From assembly GCF_029892445.1 (NCBI RefSeq), contig NZ_JARXVJ010000001.1, positions 558,001 through 622,000 of the forward strand: DNA of 64,000 nt, given 5' to 3'. The stretch is from Chryseobacterium sp. H1D6B (GTDB lineage Bacteria > Bacteroidota > Bacteroidia > Flavobacteriales > Weeksellaceae). The translations under genes and the position numbers were made by a program. This document shows positions 17,863-27,791 of the stretch, piece by piece (position 1 is the first letter of the stretch; each line of letters begins with the position of its first letter). Under the pieces are notes generated by a model that saw only the letters and a program-made list of their open reading frames with translations, was not told where the DNA came from and made no database searches.

Positions 17863-18564
17863 ATGCCCCACATTCTATTAGTAGAAGACGACAAAAGACT
17901 TTCACAGCTTATTTCAAGAGGGCTGATGGAAAATGATATGGATGTAAATACAGCGTATGACGGTGAAAAAGCATTAAAACTGGCAGAACTGATGCACTTC
18001 GATCTTATCATCACAGACATTATTCTGCCTGTAAAAAACGGATTAGACTTCTGCAGGGAAATAAAAGTATTAAAACCTAATATTCCTGTGATCATGCTTA
18101 CCGCTTTAGGAACTACAGACCACAAACTTGAGGGTTTTGATTCCGGAGCTGATGATTATCTTACCAAACCTTTTGAAATGAGAGAGCTTACCGCTAGAAT
18201 TAAGGTTTTGTTAAAACGATTTTCCCAACAGCCACAAAATACCTCATCCATACTGCAGTATGAAGATATTGAAATGAATCTGAAATTAAAAACGGTCAAC
18301 CGGAGCGGAACCCATATCAAACTGACCCCAAAAGAATTTAATCTGATGAAATTCATGCTTGAAAACCCTGAAAGAGTACTTTCCCGGGTTGAAATTGCTG
18401 AAAATGTATGGGAAACTCATTTTGATACCGGCACCAATTTTATTGATGTCTACATTAATTACATCAGAAAAAAGATCGATAAAGATTTTGAAACTAAGCT
18501 CATCCATACAAAAGCCGGAATGGGCTTTATCTTAAAAAAGGGATACGAAGATCATCTTCAGTAA
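17863..18564 (+). CDS. OmpR/PhoB-family response regulator
   Basis: 233 residues. The receiver domain (1-120) has the acidic pair ED at 8-9, the phosphoacceptor Asp52 in ITDIILPVKNG and Lys in TKPFEMREL. The C-terminal winged-helix DNA-binding domain (about 135-230) has LTPKEFNLMKFMLENPERVLSR and YINYIRKKID. It starts a two-gene operon with the histidine kinase 14 bases downstream and lies directly upstream of the metal-transport operon. The four 11-bp-phased TTCTAA repeats at 20011-20050 are its most likely target. It most resembles CusR/QseB-type metal or envelope regulators; the signal is unproven. Confidence 0.92.
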   Translation: MPHILLVEDDKRLSQLISRGLMENDMDVNTAYDGEKALKLAELMHFDLIITDIILPVKNGLDFCREIKVLKPNIPVIMLTALGTTDHKLEGFDSGADDYLTKPFEMRELTARIKVLLKRFSQQPQNTSSILQYEDIEMNLKLKTVNRSGTHIKLTPKEFNLMKFMLENPERVLSRVEIAENVWETHFDTGTNFIDVYINYIRKKIDKDFETKLIHTKAGMGFILKKGYEDHLQ

Positions 18565-18578
18565 ATACATTATCCGGC

Positions 18579-19931
18579 ATGAAAGTCAGAACCCGTCTTA
18601 CCTTACTTTTTACTCTGGTCACAGCAATGCTGATGAGCTTTTATGGTATTACCGTGTATTTTTCATCGAAAGAAGCCCGGGAAAAATCGTTCTATGCCGA
18701 GCTGAATAATGAAGCAGAAGCTAAAGCCAATCTTTTTTTTCAGGGAGAATTGAATGCAAGGGAAATGCATGAGCTTTATAAAAATAATACCCAGACTTTA
18801 AACGAGGTTCAGGTGGCTATTTATGATCCGGAGTTTAATTTAATTTACCATGATGATGCTAAAGTAGATTTTGTAAAGGAGAACAGACAAATGCTTTCCA
18901 ACATCTTTAAAAACAAACAGATCTCTTTTTATCTTAACGATTTTCAGGTAATAGGGATGGTTTATCCTCATGACGGAAAACAGTATGCCGTTACCGCTGC
19001 TGCCTATGATCAATATGGATATAACTCTGTGAATCATTTATTGACCATCAGTATTATTTCATTCATTATCATCCTAGCACTAATTTATCTCGCTGGTCTT
19101 TTCCTTTCCAAAAAAGCACTGAACCCTGCCGTTGAAATGGTAGATCAGATCAAAAAAGTAACAGCTGGAAAACTGCAGCTCCGCCTTAATTATTCAGAAG
19201 AAAAAGGCGAGTTTTATGAGCTTGAAAAAAGTTTTAACCAAATGCTTGAAAGGCTTGACAACTCTTTTAACGCTCAAAAACATTTTGTTTCTAATATTTC
19301 TCATGAACTGAATACGCCTTTAGCTGCGATGACTGCCGAATTAGAACTGGCACTGCAGAAAGAATACCCATCAGAAGAGTATCAGAAAATTATACAAAAT
19401 ACCCTGGAAGATGTTCAAAATATGAGCAGGCTTTCCAGCAGTCTTATGAATTTAGCTAAAGCCAGCTACGATCCTGCCGAGATCAGTTTTTCTGAGATCC
19501 GGATCGATGAAATCCTGCTGGACTCTTACGCCAAGATCAGAAAAGAAAATCCGCGGTACAGCATACAGCTTAATCTAGATCCTTCTATCGAGGAACAGAA
19601 ACTCATTCATGAAGGAAATTCATACCTGCTGCTTGTTGCTTTTAATAATCTTATTGATAATGCATGCAAATATTCGCCTGATAATACCTGTATCATTAAT
19701 GTTACGTTAGTTTCTGATCATTTATCCATTGAGTTCATCAATAAAGGATCGTCTGTTTCAGCGAAGGAGTATCAAAATATTTTTAAGCCTTTCTACAGAT
19801 CTGAAAATTCCCTTCATGAAAAAGGATACGGTATAGGCTTATACCTTACTGAAAAGATCATCAGTCTCCATCATGCTCAAATTGCGGTATCATCTCAGGA
19901 AAACACTACAACTTTTCAGATAATCTGGTAA
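18579..19931 (+). CDS. Sensor histidine kinase
   Basis: 450 residues. Two transmembrane helices (about 7-29 and 152-172) flank a periplasmic sensor of about 120 residues. A HAMP linker follows, then the HisKA domain with SHELNTPLAAM (phospho-His242) and the HATPase domain with NNLIDNACKYSPDN (N box) and GYGIGLYL (G box). It is the partner of the OmpR-type regulator encoded just upstream. The periplasmic domain matches nothing I recognise. Position next to mgtC, the Mg2+ ATPase and RND efflux genes suggests that it senses divalent metals or envelope state (inference). Confidence 0.92.
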   Translation: MKVRTRLTLLFTLVTAMLMSFYGITVYFSSKEAREKSFYAELNNEAEAKANLFFQGELNAREMHELYKNNTQTLNEVQVAIYDPEFNLIYHDDAKVDFVKENRQMLSNIFKNKQISFYLNDFQVIGMVYPHDGKQYAVTAAAYDQYGYNSVNHLLTISIISFIIILALIYLAGLFLSKKALNPAVEMVDQIKKVTAGKLQLRLNYSEEKGEFYELEKSFNQMLERLDNSFNAQKHFVSNISHELNTPLAAMTAELELALQKEYPSEEYQKIIQNTLEDVQNMSRLSSSLMNLAKASYDPAEISFSEIRIDEILLDSYAKIRKENPRYSIQLNLDPSIEEQKLIHEGNSYLLLVAFNNLIDNACKYSPDNTCIINVTLVSDHLSIEFINKGSSVSAKEYQNIFKPFYRSENSLHEKGYGIGLYLTEKIISLHHAQIAVSSQENTTTFQIIW

Positions 19932-20010: not shown

Positions 20011-20050
20011 TTCTAATGGAATTCTAATAGGATTCTAAAAGGTCTCTAAC
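20011..20050 (+). promoter_or_regulatory. Four 11-bp-phased direct repeats (candidate OmpR-type operator)
   Basis: TTCTAAT at 20011, TTCTAAT at 20022, TTCTAAA at 20033 and CTCTAAC at 20044 have an exact 11-base period; a further TTCTAAA sits at 20004. Heptamers with four-base spacers are the classic PhoB/OmpR arrangement. They end 22 bases before the -7 element at 20073, where an activator of a promoter with no -33 box would sit. Confidence 0.7.
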
Positions 20051-20072: not shown

Positions 20073-20080
20073 TAATTTTG
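20073..20080 (+). promoter_or_regulatory. -7 promoter element of the mgtC operon
   Basis: TAATTTTG, an exact TAnnTTTG match. No TTTG is found at the -33 spacing, which fits a promoter that needs an activator bound at the repeats just upstream. The predicted start site is near 20085-20087, about 13 bases before the leader peptide. Confidence 0.6.
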
Positions 20081-20098
20081 CAGCAAATAATAAGACCT

Positions 20099-20134
20099 AT
20101 GGACTCCGATCCTTATAGTTACTACAAACCTTAA
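20099..20134 (+). CDS. Candidate leader peptide upstream of mgtC (11 residues)
   Basis: ATG at 20099 through TAA at 20132 encodes MDSDPYSYYKP. It is the first reading frame in the predicted transcript of the mgtC operon. Its acidic-proline start (DSDP) and C-terminal proline recall the E. coli/Salmonella MgtL leader peptide, whose EPDP-containing start destabilises ribosomes when Mg2+ is low. It is followed by alternative hairpins (20145-20191), one of which blocks the mgtC start. Translation has not been shown; the call rests on position, composition and the RNA structures. Confidence 0.5.
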   Translation: MDSDPYSYYKP

Positions 20135-20144
20135 GCTTTTCTAA

Positions 20145-20195
20145 GCATACTTTTTCTGTGTGCCTACAAAGGCCTGCAAAAAAGAAAAAGTTATG
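20145..20195 (+). promoter_or_regulatory. Alternative RNA hairpins controlling the mgtC start
   Basis: Stem 1 pairs GCATAC (20145-20150) with GTGTGC (20158-20163; one G-U pair). Stem 2 pairs ACTTTTTCT (20149-20157) with AGAAAAAGT (20183-20191) in nine perfect pairs ending one base before the mgtC ATG, so it hides the A-rich ribosome-loading region. The two share bases 20149-20163 and cannot coexist. Stem 1 starts 11 bases after the leader-peptide stop codon, within reach of a terminating or stalled ribosome. Confidence 0.55.
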
Positions 20196-20888
20196 AATAC
20201 ATTAGAATTTGCTCTCCGCTTATTTACAGCATTGGTTTTGGGAGCAGGCATCGGCCTTGAAAGACAATGGCATCAAAAAAGTGCCGGTCTTCGGACAAAT
20301 ACATTAGTTTGTTTAGGCTCTGCTGCGTTTGTCTTGCTTTCCATTAGAATCGGCGGCGATGCTACGGGAAGAATCTGTTCTTATATCGTAAGCGGAATTG
20401 GCTTTCTTGGCGGCGGCGTCATTATGAAAGACGGTCTTACCGTCCGGGGTATCAATACAGCGGCCACAATCTGGTGTTCTGCATCTGTAGGTTCATTAGC
20501 TGCTTTAGGCTTTTTCCCGGAAGCTGCAATCACAAGCGGATTTATCATCTTAACCCACACTTTATTACGTCCTCTCGGATCTAAATTAGGTTCCAAAACA
20601 CTGCGCATCAACACCTCCGAATATCTTATCACTGTAAAATGCAGAACTGAAATCGAAAATCATACGAGGGTTCTGCTGATGCAGTCCTTTAATTCAAATG
20701 ATAAAGTATTACTAAAGTCGCTGACCAGCGACGATACCGAAAACCCCGAAAATATAATTATTTCAGCTGAAGTTTATTCTTCATCTCCTCAAGACAGTTT
20801 CATCGAAAAAGCAGTAAGCAGACTGACTCTTGAAGATAAAGTAATAAAAGTCAGCTGGGAAATCATAGGAACTGAAAACGATCTATAA
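20193..20888 (+). CDS. mgtC: MgtC/SapB family membrane protein
   Basis: 231 residues from the ATG at 20193; the frame also extends to a GTG at 20160, but that would run through the leader hairpins. GAGIGLERQWHQKSAGLRTN, GIGFLGGGVIMK and RGINTAATIW are the conserved MgtC core, with four or five membrane helices in the first 140 residues, and a C-terminal ACT-like cytoplasmic domain. In pathogens MgtC helps survival in low Mg2+ and inside macrophages and affects F-ATPase activity. It heads a five-gene operon; the Mg2+ P-type ATPase follows 18 bases later, as in the Salmonella mgtCB operon. Confidence 0.93.
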   Translation: MNTLEFALRLFTALVLGAGIGLERQWHQKSAGLRTNTLVCLGSAAFVLLSIRIGGDATGRICSYIVSGIGFLGGGVIMKDGLTVRGINTAATIWCSASVGSLAALGFFPEAAITSGFIILTHTLLRPLGSKLGSKTLRINTSEYLITVKCRTEIENHTRVLLMQSFNSNDKVLLKSLTSDDTENPENIIISAEVYSSSPQDSFIEKAVSRLTLEDKVIKVSWEIIGTENDL

Positions 20889-20906: not shown

Positions 20907-23579
20907 ATGCTAAAAAAACATACCAACAAGGTTTTGAATGCATCCTCATTTTCTAAAATCAGAGAAGCTGCCGCTGCGGATGAAAAAATAGTATTTGCTG
21001 TACTGGAAACCTCAGCAGAAGGAATCAGTGAAAACACAGTAAAAGACCGCATTAAAATCTACGGCAGAAATGAAATTGCTATTCAGAAAGCTCCTTCATG
21101 GATCAAGCAGCTTGTCCATTCTTTTTTTAATCCCTTTAATTACATTTTAGCATGTATTGTTGTGATTTCAATTTTCCTTGATGTAGTCCTTGCTCCTGCT
21201 GATGAAAAAGATTTCAGCACCAGCATTATCATCAGCATCATGCTCCTATTCAGTACAGGTTTAAGGTTTATTCAGGAGTTTAGAAGCAGTAAAGCCGCTG
21301 AAGCTTTAAAGAAAATGGTAAAAACCAGCTGTCTTACCAAAAGAAAATTCAAGGAAAGTGAAGAAATTGACATTACGGAAATTGTTCCCGGAGACATCAT
21401 TCTGCTTTCTGCAGGAGATATGGTTCCCGCCGACTGCAGAATTTTAAAAAGCAAGGATCTTTTCATCAGCGAGTCTATTTTAACCGGTGAAGCGCTGCCT
21501 GTTGAAAAAAACAGCCTTCCAGCGCCTAATGCTCAAAAGATAAGTCCGCTGGCACTGCAGAATGTATGTTTCATGGGAACTAATGTAGTGAGTGGTTCAG
21601 CAACTGTGGCTGTAATAAGCACCGGAACTTTCACTTATTTCGGAAGCATCAGCCGAAGTTTAAATTCTAAAAGACCTGAAACCTCTTTTGATATCGGCAT
21701 CAATAAAGTGAGCTTTCTGCTCATCCGTTTTATGCTGGTGATGACGCCTGTTATTTTTCTCATTAATGGCCTGGCAAAAGGAGACTGGACACAGGCTCTT
21801 TTATTTTCAATCGCAATCGCAGTGGGTCTTACCCCTGAAATGCTTCCAATGATCGTTACGGCCAATCTAGCCAAAGGAGCTATGAACATGAGCAAGAAAA
21901 AAGTGATCGTTAAAAGATTGAATGCCATCCAGAACATTGGAGCCATGGATGTTTTATGTACGGATAAAACAGGAACGCTTACTTTAGATAAAATCGTGTT
22001 AGAGACCCACAGAAATGTCCAGGGAATAGAAGATGATGAAGTATTGAAATGGGCTTACCTCAACAGTTTTCACCAGACCGGACTGAAAAACCTTTTGGAC
22101 AAAGCCGTTCTGGAACATGCAGAGGTTCACAACTTAATGAAAGCGGATGAATCTTATCTAAAAATTGATGAAATCCCATTTGATTTTGAAAGACGAAGAA
22201 TGTCTGTTATCCTCAGTACCGCCAATGGAAGACATTTAATGATCACTAAAGGTGCAGTAGAAGAAACACTTTCGCTTTGTAAATATGCCTTAGATCCAGG
22301 AGAAGACCACAGTTTACATATTGAGAATGACAATATAGTTCCGCTTGATGATGCGATGAAGCAGAAAATCCTCGAAATGTCTGAAAAGCTTAACGCTGAA
22401 GGTTTGAGAGTATTGTTAATCGCCATCCGTGAGTTTGACGGAAGCCATCCTTTGAATTATTCAGTATCACATGAAAATAATTTGATTTTAACAGGTTGTA
22501 TAGGCTTCCTAGATCCAGCAAAACCTTCTGCCGGGCCGAGTATTAAAGCCTTACAGAAATTAGGGGTTGAAGTAAAAGTAGTCACCGGAGATAATGAAAT
22601 TGTAGCTAAAAAAATATGCCGTGATGTTGACATACCCGTTAACCACATTATGCTGGGAGACGAACTGGAAAATATCTCTGATGAAGAACTCAGCAGAGAC
22701 ATGGAACACTATTCCATTTTCGCAAAAGTAAGCCCGCTTCAAAAACAGCGTATTGTAAAGGTATTAAAATCCAAAGGCCACACTGTTGGGTTTATGGGCG
22801 ATGGGATCAATGATGCTGCAGCGATCAAAGAGGCCGATGTAGGAATTTCAGTGGATACAGGAGCGGATATTGCTAAAGAAAGCGCTGATATTATTCTTTT
22901 GGAAAAAGATTTAATGGTTCTAAGAAGCGGAGTAATCTATGGAAGAAGAACGTTTGGAAACATCATTAAGTATATCAAAATGACCTCCAGCAGCAATTTT
23001 GGAAATATGTTCAGTATGATAGGAGCCAGCATCTTTCTGCCTTTTCTTCCCATGCTGCCATTACAGATCTTGATTCAGAATCTGTTGTATGATATCTCCC
23101 AGTCGTCCATTCCGTGGGATACAATGGATAAAGATTTCCTTGAAAAACCTAAAAAATGGGAAGCACAGAGTATTCAGAAATTCATGCTTTTTATCGGCCC
23201 TATAAGTTCAATTTTTGATTATGCCACTTTCGCGGTGATGTTCTTTATTTTCAAGGCCAACAGTCCGGAACATCAGACTCTCTTTCAGACCGGATGGTTT
23301 GTGGAAGGCCTTCTTTCACAGACATTGATTGTGCATATCATCAGAACAAAAAAGATCCCGTTCATCCAAAGCTGGAGTGCAGCTCCTGTTGCTGCTCTAA
23401 CGAGTCTGATTATGGCAATAGGTATTGTCATTCCGTTTACTCCGATAGCCGGATATTTAAAAATGCAGCCGCTGCCTTTAAGTTATTTCCCTTATTTAAT
23501 TATCATCCTGTTAAGCTACTGCACGCTTACTCAAATCATTAAAACATGGTACATCAAAAAATTCAACCAATGGTTATAA
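20907..23579 (+). CDS. mgtA: Magnesium-translocating P-type ATPase (MgtA/MgtB type)
   Basis: 890 residues. It carries an N-terminal cation-ATPase domain, an actuator domain with LTGEALPVEK, the phosphorylation motif CTDKTGTLT with Asp353, VTGDNEIVAKKICRDV in the P domain and the hinge GDGINDAAAIKEADVGIS. The segment SIAIAVGLTPEMLPMIVTA is the family's typical M4 region. P3-type ATPases of this class import Mg2+ into the cytosol. It lies between mgtC and the RND adaptor, whose start overlaps its last codons, so expression is presumably coupled. Confidence 0.94.
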   Translation: MLKKHTNKVLNASSFSKIREAAAADEKIVFAVLETSAEGISENTVKDRIKIYGRNEIAIQKAPSWIKQLVHSFFNPFNYILACIVVISIFLDVVLAPADEKDFSTSIIISIMLLFSTGLRFIQEFRSSKAAEALKKMVKTSCLTKRKFKESEEIDITEIVPGDIILLSAGDMVPADCRILKSKDLFISESILTGEALPVEKNSLPAPNAQKISPLALQNVCFMGTNVVSGSATVAVISTGTFTYFGSISRSLNSKRPETSFDIGINKVSFLLIRFMLVMTPVIFLINGLAKGDWTQALLFSIAIAVGLTPEMLPMIVTANLAKGAMNMSKKKVIVKRLNAIQNIGAMDVLCTDKTGTLTLDKIVLETHRNVQGIEDDEVLKWAYLNSFHQTGLKNLLDKAVLEHAEVHNLMKADESYLKIDEIPFDFERRRMSVILSTANGRHLMITKGAVEETLSLCKYALDPGEDHSLHIENDNIVPLDDAMKQKILEMSEKLNAEGLRVLLIAIREFDGSHPLNYSVSHENNLILTGCIGFLDPAKPSAGPSIKALQKLGVEVKVVTGDNEIVAKKICRDVDIPVNHIMLGDELENISDEELSRDMEHYSIFAKVSPLQKQRIVKVLKSKGHTVGFMGDGINDAAAIKEADVGISVDTGADIAKESADIILLEKDLMVLRSGVIYGRRTFGNIIKYIKMTSSSNFGNMFSMIGASIFLPFLPMLPLQILIQNLLYDISQSSIPWDTMDKDFLEKPKKWEAQSIQKFMLFIGPISSIFDYATFAVMFFIFKANSPEHQTLFQTGWFVEGLLSQTLIVHIIRTKKIPFIQSWSAAPVAALTSLIMAIGIVIPFTPIAGYLKMQPLPLSYFPYLIIILLSYCTLTQIIKTWYIKKFNQWL

Positions 23580-24685
23580 ACAAGTTCTATATAAAAACAA
23601 TACTGCCTGCCGTACTTCTAGTTTTCATTGTTTCGTGCAATGACAGCAAGACACCCATTTCTCAAAAGAACACAGTAACAGCACAAGGAAACCGTATTAC
23701 TATTTCAGAAAACAATCCTGTATTAAAAAAAATTCTGACTGAAACTGTAACAGAAAAAGAATACAGCAGCAGTATCACTTCTGTAGGCACTATAGAAACC
23801 ATTCCTACTAATTATGCAGAGATTGCAAGTCCGTTTTCCGGAAGGGTTATTAAATCCTTCGTGAATATCGGCCAGAGAGTGAGCGCCGGAAGTCCTGTGT
23901 TTGAGATTATTTCTCCAGATTATTTTTCGATACAAAAAGAATATTCTGATGCATTGAATGATTCAAAGCTCGCAGAAAAAAATTACAGACGCCAGCAGGA
24001 TCTTGTAAGACACGGCGTAGGAATTCAAAGAGAATTAGAAGAAGCCGAAACAGAATATAAAAATAAAAAAACCTCTTTATCCAATACCTCTTCAGCATTA
24101 CAAGTATACAACAGCAAAGGTTCCGGAGGCTCTCTCATTGTAAGAGCTCCTATCAGCGGGGAAGTCATTTCCAATAAATTGGTAACCGGCCAGTATCTAA
24201 AAGAAGATGCGGAACCTGTCATGATCATTGCTGCACTTTCCAAAGTATGGATCTCGGGAGACGTGAAGGAAAAAGACATCCGTTTCATCAAAAATGGAGA
24301 TCCTGTTTCAGTAAATGTAAGCACCTATCCAGATTTAGAAATTACAGGAAAAGTTTATCATATCAACGAAATACTGAATGAAGACACACGGAGTATTAAA
24401 GTGATCATACAATGTGACAATCCTGAAAAAAAACTAAAACCCGGGATGTTTGCAACAATCAGCTATTCTACAAACTCGGAGAAAGCTATTCTAATTCCTG
24501 ACAGTGCCCTGCTGCAGAAAGGAGGCAGCCAGTATGTCTGGATAAAAACAGGAAAAAATCAATTTACAAAACGTATTGTAACTCCCGGAGAATCTATCGA
24601 AAAGAGGGTTAAAATCATTTCAGGCCTTCAAGCAGGAGATATTCTTATGAGCCAGGGTGGAATTTATATGCCGGATACCAGATAA
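23570..24685 (+). CDS. RND efflux periplasmic adaptor (CusB/CzcB-like), lipoprotein
   Basis: 371 residues from the ATG at 23570, which overlaps the end of the ATPase gene by 10 bases; an ATG 24 bases earlier is in frame but would precede the signal. The lipoprotein signal ends LVFIVSCNDS. The barrel-sandwich (lipoyl-like) halves are ASPFSGRVIKSFVNIGQRVS and VRAPISGEVISNKLVTGQYL, with an alpha-hairpin between them (about 125-175) and the membrane-proximal beta-barrel after. It belongs to the heavy-metal efflux adaptor family and bridges inner-membrane permease and outer-membrane channel. Confidence 0.9.
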   Translation: MVINKFYIKTILPAVLLVFIVSCNDSKTPISQKNTVTAQGNRITISENNPVLKKILTETVTEKEYSSSITSVGTIETIPTNYAEIASPFSGRVIKSFVNIGQRVSAGSPVFEIISPDYFSIQKEYSDALNDSKLAEKNYRRQQDLVRHGVGIQRELEEAETEYKNKKTSLSNTSSALQVYNSKGSGGSLIVRAPISGEVISNKLVTGQYLKEDAEPVMIIAALSKVWISGDVKEKDIRFIKNGDPVSVNVSTYPDLEITGKVYHINEILNEDTRSIKVIIQCDNPEKKLKPGMFATISYSTNSEKAILIPDSALLQKGGSQYVWIKTGKNQFTKRIVTPGESIEKRVKIISGLQAGDILMSQGGIYMPDTR

Positions 24686-24688
24686 AAT

Positions 24689-27600
24689 ATGATTATGAAA
24701 AAATTATTAACACTCTCCATACAGAAGAAATGGCTTATACCGGCTCTTTTCTTGTTATTAGGTTTTTTTGGATATTATTCATGGACGAAACTTTCTGTAG
24801 AGGCTTATCCGGATATTGCGGATGTTACTTCACAGGTAGTGACCCAGGTTCCCGGACTGGCCGCTGAAGAAATTGAACAGCAGATCACCATTCCTCTGGA
24901 AAGATCTCTTAACGGGCTGCCGGGAATGCACGTGATGCGGAGTAAAAGTACTTTCGGACTTTCTATTATTACCATAGTTTTCGATGACGGAATTGATGAT
25001 TACTGGGCCAGGCAGAGAATTCAGGAAAGACTTTCGGAAGTCAGTCTTCCTTATGATGCACAGCCGGGACTGGATCCTTTAACCTCTCCTGTGGGAGAAA
25101 TTTACCGCTACATTATTGAAGGGAAAAATCACAGTCTGAGAGAACTTACCGATCTGCAGAATTTCGTGATTATTCCAAGGATTAAACAGGTTTCAGGTAT
25201 TGCGGATGTAACTAACTTCGGCGGAATAACGACTCAGTTTCAGATTGAGCTCGATCCTCATAAGCTTGAACAATTCGGGATTTCTTTATCAGATGTTACA
25301 GAAACCATTACTAAAAACAACAGCAATGCGGGCGGCAGCATGCTCTCCCGAGGAGATCTTTCTTATGTGATCCGCGGCATCGGGCTTATCAAAGGACCTT
25401 AATGATCTGGGAAAGATCGTTATTAAAACAGAAAAAGGCGTTCCCGTTTTCCTGAATGACGCAGGAACCCTGAAATACGGAAACCTTGAAAGAAAAGGAA
25501 TATTAGGCTATACGGACAGAAACAGAAATTACAACGAAAGTGCCGGAGGAATCGTGCTTTTATTAAAAGGACAAAATCCTTCAAAAGTTTTGAAAGAACT
25601 GCATACCGCTGTTGATGAGCTCAATACTGCAGCTCTTCCCGAAGGAGTCAAAATTCACGCTTACCTGGATAGAACCGATCTGGTGAACACAACACTTACT
25701 ACAGTATCCCATACTTTAACGGAAGGTATTGTTTTAGTGATCATTATTTTAATTGTATTTCTCGGAAGCTGGAGAGGAGCGCTGCTTGTGGCAGTTACTA
25801 TTCCGCTGTCTCTTCTCATTGCATTTATCCTGATGTATTTTACGGATATTCCTGCCAATTTACTGTCTTTAGGAGCGATAGATTTTGGAATTATTGTAGA
25901 CGGCTCCATCGTCATGCTGGAAGTGATCTTAAGGAAAAGAGAGGACGCCCCTGAAAAAGAGTTAGAAGAAAAAAACACTATTCAAAGAGCCACCGAGATC
26001 GCAAAACCGATCTTCTTTTCAACAGTGATCATTATTACGGCTTATCTCCCGCTGTTTGCTTTTGAAAGAGTAGAAAAGAAGCTTTTCACTCCGATGGCAT
26101 TCACGATTGGATATGCACTGCTCGGCGCCCTGGCTGTTGCTTTGGTGTTAATTCCAGGTTTAGCCTACCTGATTTATAAAAAGCCCCGAAAAATTTATCA
26201 TAATAAATGGCTCGAAAAAATAAGCGGCAGGTACGGGAAGAGAATTGAAAAAATAATGTCGGCACCGAAAAAAATACTGCTTCCCGCAGGTATCATCTTA
26301 TTGTCTGCCGGATTTCTCTCCTACAGTATCGGAAAAGATTTTCTTCCGGAACTGGATGAAGGTTCTATATGGCTGCAGGTACAGCTTCCGCCTGGGATTT
26401 CATTAGATAAAGCTAAAGAAATGAGTGATTCATTACGTTCTCAGACAATGAAACACAATGAGGTTACTTACGTCATGGTTCAGGCCGGGCGGAACGATGA
26501 CGGTACTGATCCTTGGACGGCCTCTCATTTTGAAGTTTCAGTAGGAATAAAACCTTATAAAGAATGGCCGTCTGGAAAAACCAAAGCCGATCTGATCCAC
26601 GAATTGTCTGCCGACTATAAAAAGATGCCGGGATTCTCCGTAGGATTTTCACAGCCCATGATTGACGGGGTGATGGATAAGATCTCCGGAGCCCACAGCG
26701 AGCTGGTTGTAAAAGTATATGGAGATGATTTCAGCGGAACAAGAAAAATTGCAGACCAGATCCTTTCCACACTACAGAAAATTCCAGGATCTGCAGACCT
26801 TGCTATCGATCAGGAACCTCCGCTTCCTCAGTTACAGATCATAGCAGACCGGGATAAAACAGCCCAATACGGCCTGAATGTTTCCGATGTGGCAGACCTT
26901 ATAGAAACCGCACTGGGAGGAAAGGCTGTTTCACAAATCTTTATCGGCAATAAAGTGTATGATATTTCATGCCGCTACATCGAGGACAGCCGTAATACAC
27001 CGGATAAAATAGGGAATCTTATGCTGACCTCAGCTTCAGGAGCGAAAATTCCGCTTTCACAAGTGGCAGCAATAAAATTAAGTACGGGAGAAAGTACGAT
27101 CACCCGGGAAATGAATAAAAGACATCTTACTGTAAAATTAAATGTAAGAGACCGGGATCTTTCCTCATTTCTTAAAGAAGCTCAAGACAATATTGAAAAG
27201 AATATCAAATACGACCATGAAAAATACCAGATTAAATGGGGCGGCCAGTTTGAAAACAAGAATAGAGCGTATTCCAGACTGGCATTTATTGTTCCGCTTG
27301 CACTGGCGATGATGTTCATTCTGCTTTACAGCGCCTTTGGAAGTTTCAGACAGGCTTTAGTCCTGATGAGTATTATTCCGCTGGCTTTATTTGGAGGAAT
27401 GCTTGCTTTGAACATACGAGGAATGACTTTAAATGTTTCTTCGGCTGTAGGATTTATTGCTTTATTCGGAGTAGCTGTTCAAAACGGTGTGATCATGGTT
27501 TCTCACATCAATACGCTCAGAAAACAGGGCTTTGATCTTAAAACATCAGTAGTAAAAGGAGCTCAAGACCGTTTCAGACCGGTATTAATGACAGCTTCTG

Positions 27601-27791
27601 TAGCAGTGATCGGACTTTTTCCGGCTTCATTAGCAACAGGAATAGGTTCTGATGTTCAAAGACCTTTGGCTACGGTAATTGTTTACGGACTGATGTTTTC
27701 AACCGTTCTCACTTTATTCATTTTACCAGCCGTCTATTATTTAGCGGAGTATCATTTTGAAAAACAAAATTTAAAATCAGATGAAATCTAA
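24689..27791 (+). pseudogene. Heavy-metal RND efflux permease (CusA/CzcA family), interrupted by a frameshift
   Basis: Two frames together give about 1034 residues, the normal length. Frame one (24689-25402) ends with YVIRGIGLIKGP and a TAA. From 25395 the other forward frame continues without a gap (DLNDLGKIVIKTEKG onward) to 27791. Removing one G of the GG at 25394-25395 restores a family-like IKDLNDLG. The intact remainder has the metal-efflux TM4 motif DFGIIVDGSIVMLE and the second-half membrane bundle. Causes could be real inactivation, a sequencing error or, less likely, +1 recoding at CCT-TAA. Downstream TolC overlaps its end by 11 bases. If functional it would export divalent or monovalent metal ions by proton antiport. 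Confidence 0.85.

Follow-up and report, generated by a model that had tools for sequence, protein, structure and literature searches.

The locus examined here raises the question of how a bacterium of the phylum Bacteroidota controls mgtC, and whether a very short reading frame in front of this gene takes part in that control. The genome of Chryseobacterium sp. H1D6B consists of one 4.56-Mb contig, of which bases 558001-622000, a stretch of 64,000 nucleotides hereafter called the window, were analyzed; all features described below lie on the plus strand and are numbered from the first base of the window. An earlier note on this DNA had placed a promoter box, an 11-codon frame and two competing stems upstream of mgtC and mgtA, and all of these elements were found at the positions it gave. 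The mgtC gene (20193-20888) matches PF02308 (5e-36) and PF21770, and is followed, after a gap of 18 nt, by a gene for an mgtA/mgtB-type Mg2+ P-type ATPase (20907-23579; TIGR01524, 1224 bits, above the cut-off), so that the profile matches bear out the claimed gene assignments. The same gene run continues with a CzcB/CusB-like RND efflux adaptor gene (23546-24685; TIGR01730, PF16576) and a CzcA/CusA-like pump gene. The latter (24689-27791) is split near 25390 into two frames covering residues 1-233 and then 230-1031, which marks either a pseudogene or a sequencing indel.

On the other side of the leader lie a gene for an OmpR-family response regulator (17863-18564; PF00072 and PF00486), which adjoins mgtC in most relatives, and a gene for a sensor histidine kinase (18579-19931; HAMP, HisKA and HATPase_c domains), whose best NCBIfam match is the heavy-metal sensor kinase family, with a score under that family's cut-off. 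In one relative (locus L040, 2600-4000), an antisense 283-aa transporter-like gene is located between the kinase gene and mgtC. The sequence TAATTTTG (20073-20080) has the form of a Bacteroidota-type -7 promoter box, and TA-NN-TTTG occurs at the matching place 5' of mgtC in the relatives. Just upstream of this box, and absent from the earlier note, are four direct repeats with 11-bp spacing (20011-20049), with CTAA at 20013, 20024, 20035 and 20046, the first three reading TTCTAA and the last CTCTAA. This is the sole such array in the window, where 0.00 would be expected, and it recurs at a similar distance from the TA-NN-TTTG box before mgtC at most loci across Bacteroidota, including those that possess no leader frame. 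Operators of the OmpR/PhoB type are typically direct repeats one helical turn apart beside an OmpR-family gene. Since the CTAA repeats show this spacing and this neighborhood, the adjacent two-component system can be proposed as the switch of the operon: the response regulator is a probable activator of the mgtC operon and the CTAA boxes are candidate operator sites to which, by analogy, it probably binds. A probable regulator and its operator are thereby now proposed for a Bacteroidota mgtC operon.

The frame itself, MDSDPYSYYKP (20099-20134), consists of the codons ATG GAC TCC GAT CCT TAT AGT TAC TAC AAA CCT TAA. A single match to the pattern TTTG-N11-26-ATGGAYNCNGAYYC is present in the window, where 0.01 would be expected, and the entire genome contains no other. 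When genomes of the same genus were searched for MgtC and the 5' regions were then read, a leader frame was present at the matching place in 60/60 distinct mgtC 5' leaders of the main Chryseobacterium/Elizabethkingia lineage, the variants including, besides the window peptide, MDADPSSYYQP, MDTDSSHYYNN and MDPDPYSNYQS. A genus search with the TTTGC...ATGGAY form of the leader gave, among the matches that could be placed, hits at mgtC and once at an mgtC remnant. The phylum-wide sample contained just 7 genomes with mgtC, and other families were gathered by further searches. Relatives of the leader were found before mgtC also in Empedobacter (METDSQFVKQ), Weeksella (MEPDSAKSHLAH), the genus of genome G523 (METESTLVKREC), Flavobacterium (MEADPNRTKFN), Mucilaginibacter (MDTGPSINYQDSKTSR), the Chitinophagaceae (Chitinophaga, MDTGPARITRYPI) and Pseudarcicella (MDAGPLCNIRKFLH). 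Across the family, the leader is 9-14 codons long and starts with M-[D/E]-x-[D/E/G]-[P/S]. The cross-species alignment that had been suggested at the outset is thus favorable to the frame and, judged from sequence, the device spans several Bacteroidota families, more widely than first thought, yet is not universal there.

Within the genus, a second mgtC lineage (L044-L054, 60% identity) retains the CTAA boxes while the leader ORF is missing; its 5' leader measures just 24-40 nt and its mgtC-mgtA gap is longer, and no consistent mgtQ-like acidic ORF was found in that gap. Sphingobacterium and others likewise have a short mgtC 5' leader devoid of an ORF. The existence of leaderless mgtC lineages implies that the leader device is dispensable or lineage-specific. 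Two further arrangements were observed. At locus L214 (2000-2700), mgtC is no more than a remnant after about 20 codons, while the CTAA boxes, the leader (MDPDPYSYKKP) and the stems persist before czcB/czcA; this suggests that the switch is of importance to the genes that follow, or else that mgtC was lost only recently. In L055-L071, which come from many species, the leader is kept in front of a shortened MgtC-like ORF (matching about the first 130 residues), directly followed by an efflux adaptor gene, with no mgtA.

Whether the peptide itself is under selection was assessed on 95 loci placed on an MgtC tree, by counting parsimony changes per codon position with 12 untranslated upstream columns as baseline. 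The leader was taken, blind to the motif, as the first ATG ORF of at least 6 codons after the promoter box; its start was set manually in four loci (L108, L147, L186 and L187). Codon 2 shows 3/2/19 changes at positions 1/2/3, codon 4 shows 9/9/12 and codon 5 shows 12/4/23, so that third positions account for 54 of the 93 changes in these three codons (binomial p ~9e-7). Untranslated columns underwent a mean of about 17 changes each; the third positions of the leader evolve equally fast, and the first and second positions of codons 2, 4 and 5 much more slowly. At the residue level, D or E occupies codon 2 in 90/95 loci and codon 4 in 76/95, and codon 5 encodes Pro in 66/95 and Ser in 26/95. When loci were grouped at 80% MgtC identity, 18 of the 20 groups had D/E at residue 2, against a background of 6.7%, GA following 56 of the 835 ATGs elsewhere upstream. 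That D and E replace one another at codons 2 and 4 suggests that selection at these positions acts on charge. Codons 6 onward are free of constraint and vary in sequence and length. Consequently, the expected synonymous bias holds for codons 2, 4 and 5, but the protein-level constraint does not extend beyond codons 1-5 of the 11.

Downstream of the frame, the RNA can adopt two structures. Hairpin A (20135-20173; -13.3 kcal/mol), the proposed ON state, starts at the first base 3' of the leader stop codon and pairs 20135-20140 with 20168-20173, 20142-20143 with 20165-20166 and 20145-20150 with 20158-20163; the last of these helices is the GCATAC/GTGTGC stem described earlier, whose extent had been underestimated. 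Stem B (20149-20191), the proposed OFF state, lies over the start tract of mgtC and is formed by nine pairs between ACTTTTTCT (20149-20157) and AGAAAAAGT (20183-20191), enclosing a small hairpin C (20162-20173) derived from the 3' arm of A. The apical loop of hairpin A belongs to strand ACTTTTTCT, the 5' side of stem B, and the computed folds are therefore mutually exclusive, as had been claimed. The 3' end of B lies one base before the mgtC ATG (20193), so that the start region is hidden in one of the two folds. Bacteroidetes mRNAs lack Shine-Dalgarno sequences and their initiation is tuned by local structure (PMC6847099), which makes a hairpin that stops one base short of the ATG a plausible block.

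The two states are close in energy. In the window, A amounts to -13.3 and B+C to -14.6 kcal/mol, a difference of about 1.3, whereas among the 60 leaders A is favored by a median of 2.7 and is the lower of the two in 43/60. A nine-pair stem is infrequent in dinucleotide shuffles (p ~0.007), and the stretch 3' of the leader folds with unusual energy (z -2.8), in contrast to the whole 136-nt region, which is ordinary (z -0.9). The stem sequences differ by clade (GCATAC/GTGTGC, GTAC/GTAC, TATAC/GTATA) while the architecture, including that of A, is shared. No consensus fold of all 60 leaders was obtained from a single MAFFT alignment, because neither the sequence nor the register of the stems is constant between clades, and the folds were compared inside one clade. 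In this 20-sequence clade, RNAalifold recovers B+C unprompted, with C-G, U-A and U-G types at two pairs. By pair counts, B+C is satisfied in 94.7% versus at most 56.9% for slid controls, and A in 88.7% versus at most 51.4%. Of the compensatory changes anticipated in the earlier note, the preservation of the folds through sequence change was thus observed, but just two pairs covary in the clade tested; stem B is mainly a U-run opposite an A-run, and covarying pairs are few. A clear stem B was not found in Empedobacter and several Flavobacterium. Neither an intrinsic terminator 3' of the promoter box in the leader nor a relevant Rfam match, at gathering or permissive thresholds, was detected, the best weak hit being an unrelated sRNA (E 0.13). 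As far as alignments can tell, the structural evidence for A and B is good, not overwhelming.

The consequence of leader translation was modeled by computing the openness of the mgtC start with the RNA blocked by a ribosome positioned either on the leader stop or at codon 4. With the ribosome on the stop, openness falls by more than 0.1 in 18/60 leaders and rises by as much in 0/60. For the window leader the calculation gives no change, because B is already slightly favored there, and the model therefore needs co-transcriptional trapping of A. Such trapping is conceivable since transcription completes A ahead of the mgtC start tract, so that A can form first. In other families the effect is mixed, with L109, L120 and L178 pointing the opposite way. 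The calculation supports, without proving, a scheme in which full translation of the leader shuts mgtC and early drop-off opens it.

Collectively, the conserved leader and both of its folds, which exclude each other, were recovered by computation, and the core idea of a short acidic leader peptide with exclusive folds before mgtC is strongly supported by the sequence comparisons. We consider it probable, with due reserve, that these elements constitute a leader-peptide switch that acts in cis on mgtC, the first gene of an Mg2+-stress operon. In this switch, the adjacent two-component system would probably start transcription at the CTAA boxes, and the leader would be translated first, as its protein-level conservation suggests. 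With ample Mg2+, ribosomes would reach the leader stop, where they would mask the 5' arm of hairpin A; with A blocked, the freed U-rich loop strand would pair with the A-rich tract before the ATG as stem B, leaving mgtC untranslated. At low cytosolic Mg2+, the acidic codons 2-5 would destabilize the ribosomes and cause early drop-off, whereupon A, transcribed first, would remain folded, B would be blocked and mgtC would be translated. The gene content and the motif suggest Mg2+ as the signal; we further infer the drop-off, the direction of switching, and control at translation rather than at transcription.

The same frame may nevertheless be a regulatory ORF that acts through ribosome pausing or coupling in another manner. 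The signal could differ from Mg2+, with elongation stress, the status of EF-P or EttA, or another metal as candidates, given that the motif could slow ribosomes otherwise; the resemblance of the kinase to heavy-metal sensors and the metal-efflux genes downstream would suit such a signal, whereas the Mg2+ genes present and the agreement with MgtL at positions 2 and 4 speak against it. Alternatively, translation of the leader could open mgtC by reinitiation, a reading in keeping with the mixed direction of switching in other families, although the 58 nt between the leader stop and the mgtC ATG are long for simple reinitiation. Taken together, these variants are unlikely, but they form a serious alternative.

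It is improbable that A and B act by themselves as a pseudoknot or riboswitch-like sensor of a ligand or metal, with the ORF secondary: the folds are conserved and the loop and stem lengths of one clade, judged by eye, suit an H-type pseudoknot, but the first peptide codons are kept across families with unrelated RNA sequences, and Rfam offers no match. The frequent Pro5 (66/95) could indicate a small peptide functioning in trans, or an MgtP-like attenuator responding to proline supply. We regard both as very improbable, since the part after codon 5 is variable in both sequence and length and the peptide has no hydrophobic segment, and since Pro5 is often replaced by Ser (26/95) and the main lineage has no proline run. 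Lastly, a chance ORF beside chance hairpins in an A+T-rich leader would agree with the ordinary folding energy of the whole region, and is contradicted by the conservation, the codon-position bias and the uniqueness of the pattern in the genome; it deserves hardly any credence.

If the leader-peptide switch is correct, two distant phyla may share a way of gauging magnesium through the ribosome. Published demonstrations of Mg2+ sensing by ribosome stability were found for enterobacterial leaders only, and no description of such a leader at a Bacteroidota mgtC was found in an incomplete literature search, in agreement with the earlier note. The wider proposition is that M-[D/E]-x-[D/E]-P acidic leaders form a cross-phylum, ribosome-destabilizing Mg2+ sensor, that the widespread Bacteroidota family, controlled by a two-component system of its own, uses a hairpin at the start codon to gate mgtC translation, and that this reflects convergence or ancient kinship with the MgtL/mgtQ logic; for this proposition the case appears evenly balanced. 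Because acidic residues recur at the same codons, in front of a gene of the same family, in a phylum that initiates without Shine-Dalgarno sequences, it can now be tested whether acidic nascent chains are general destabilizers of bacterial ribosomes and a repeatedly used Mg2+ gauge, and the loci with leader, without leader and with decayed mgtC provide a natural series for this purpose.

Among the known systems, the parallel to MgtL and MgtP drawn in the earlier note is upheld for the EPDP start of MgtL, with Salmonella mgtQ as the closest case, but fails for the proline-run MgtP. In E. coli MgtL, ribosomes drop off at EPDP in low Mg2+, altering Glu2 and Asp4 abolishes expression of an mgtA fusion, and destabilization is attributed to acidic residues that lie close to the N-terminus, next to each other or one position apart (PMC11282234). 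The spacing E2-P3-D4-P5 resembles that of the present family, acidic at 2 and 4 with P/S at 5, and the window leader MDSDP carries acidic codons 2 and 4 and Pro5 as MgtL-type leaders do; both are short leader ORFs on an Mg2+ transport transcript tied to alternative RNA folds. In contrast, MgtL governs Rho-dependent transcription termination, whereas here the fold shuts on the next gene's start codon; moreover, codon 3 is usually not Pro and the gene is mgtC. No homology to MgtL is claimed past the motif. MgtP of Salmonella mgtCBR has three consecutive Pro codons and acts by transcription attenuation (PMC3641672), neither of which is seen here, no three-Pro run being present in the window leader or the main-lineage leaders. 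The M-box and other Mg2+ riboswitches are likewise 5' leader RNAs governing Mg2+ genes, but here Rfam gives no match and the RNA sequence varies by clade while the peptide motif is kept. By analogy, the closest mechanism is that of Salmonella mgtQ, in which the start of mgtB is released by means of acidic codons and mutually exclusive stem-loops, translation being the step controlled (PMC8092293). The likeness comprises a very short ORF, two acidic codons, exclusive stem-loops, a hidden start of the next gene and, as proposed here, translational control. However, mgtQ lies between mgtC and mgtB and its acidic codons are 2 and 5, whereas the Bacteroidota ORF precedes mgtC; and mgtB stays off when mgtQ is untranslated, while the prediction for the present leader is that lack of translation favors or allows the ON state.
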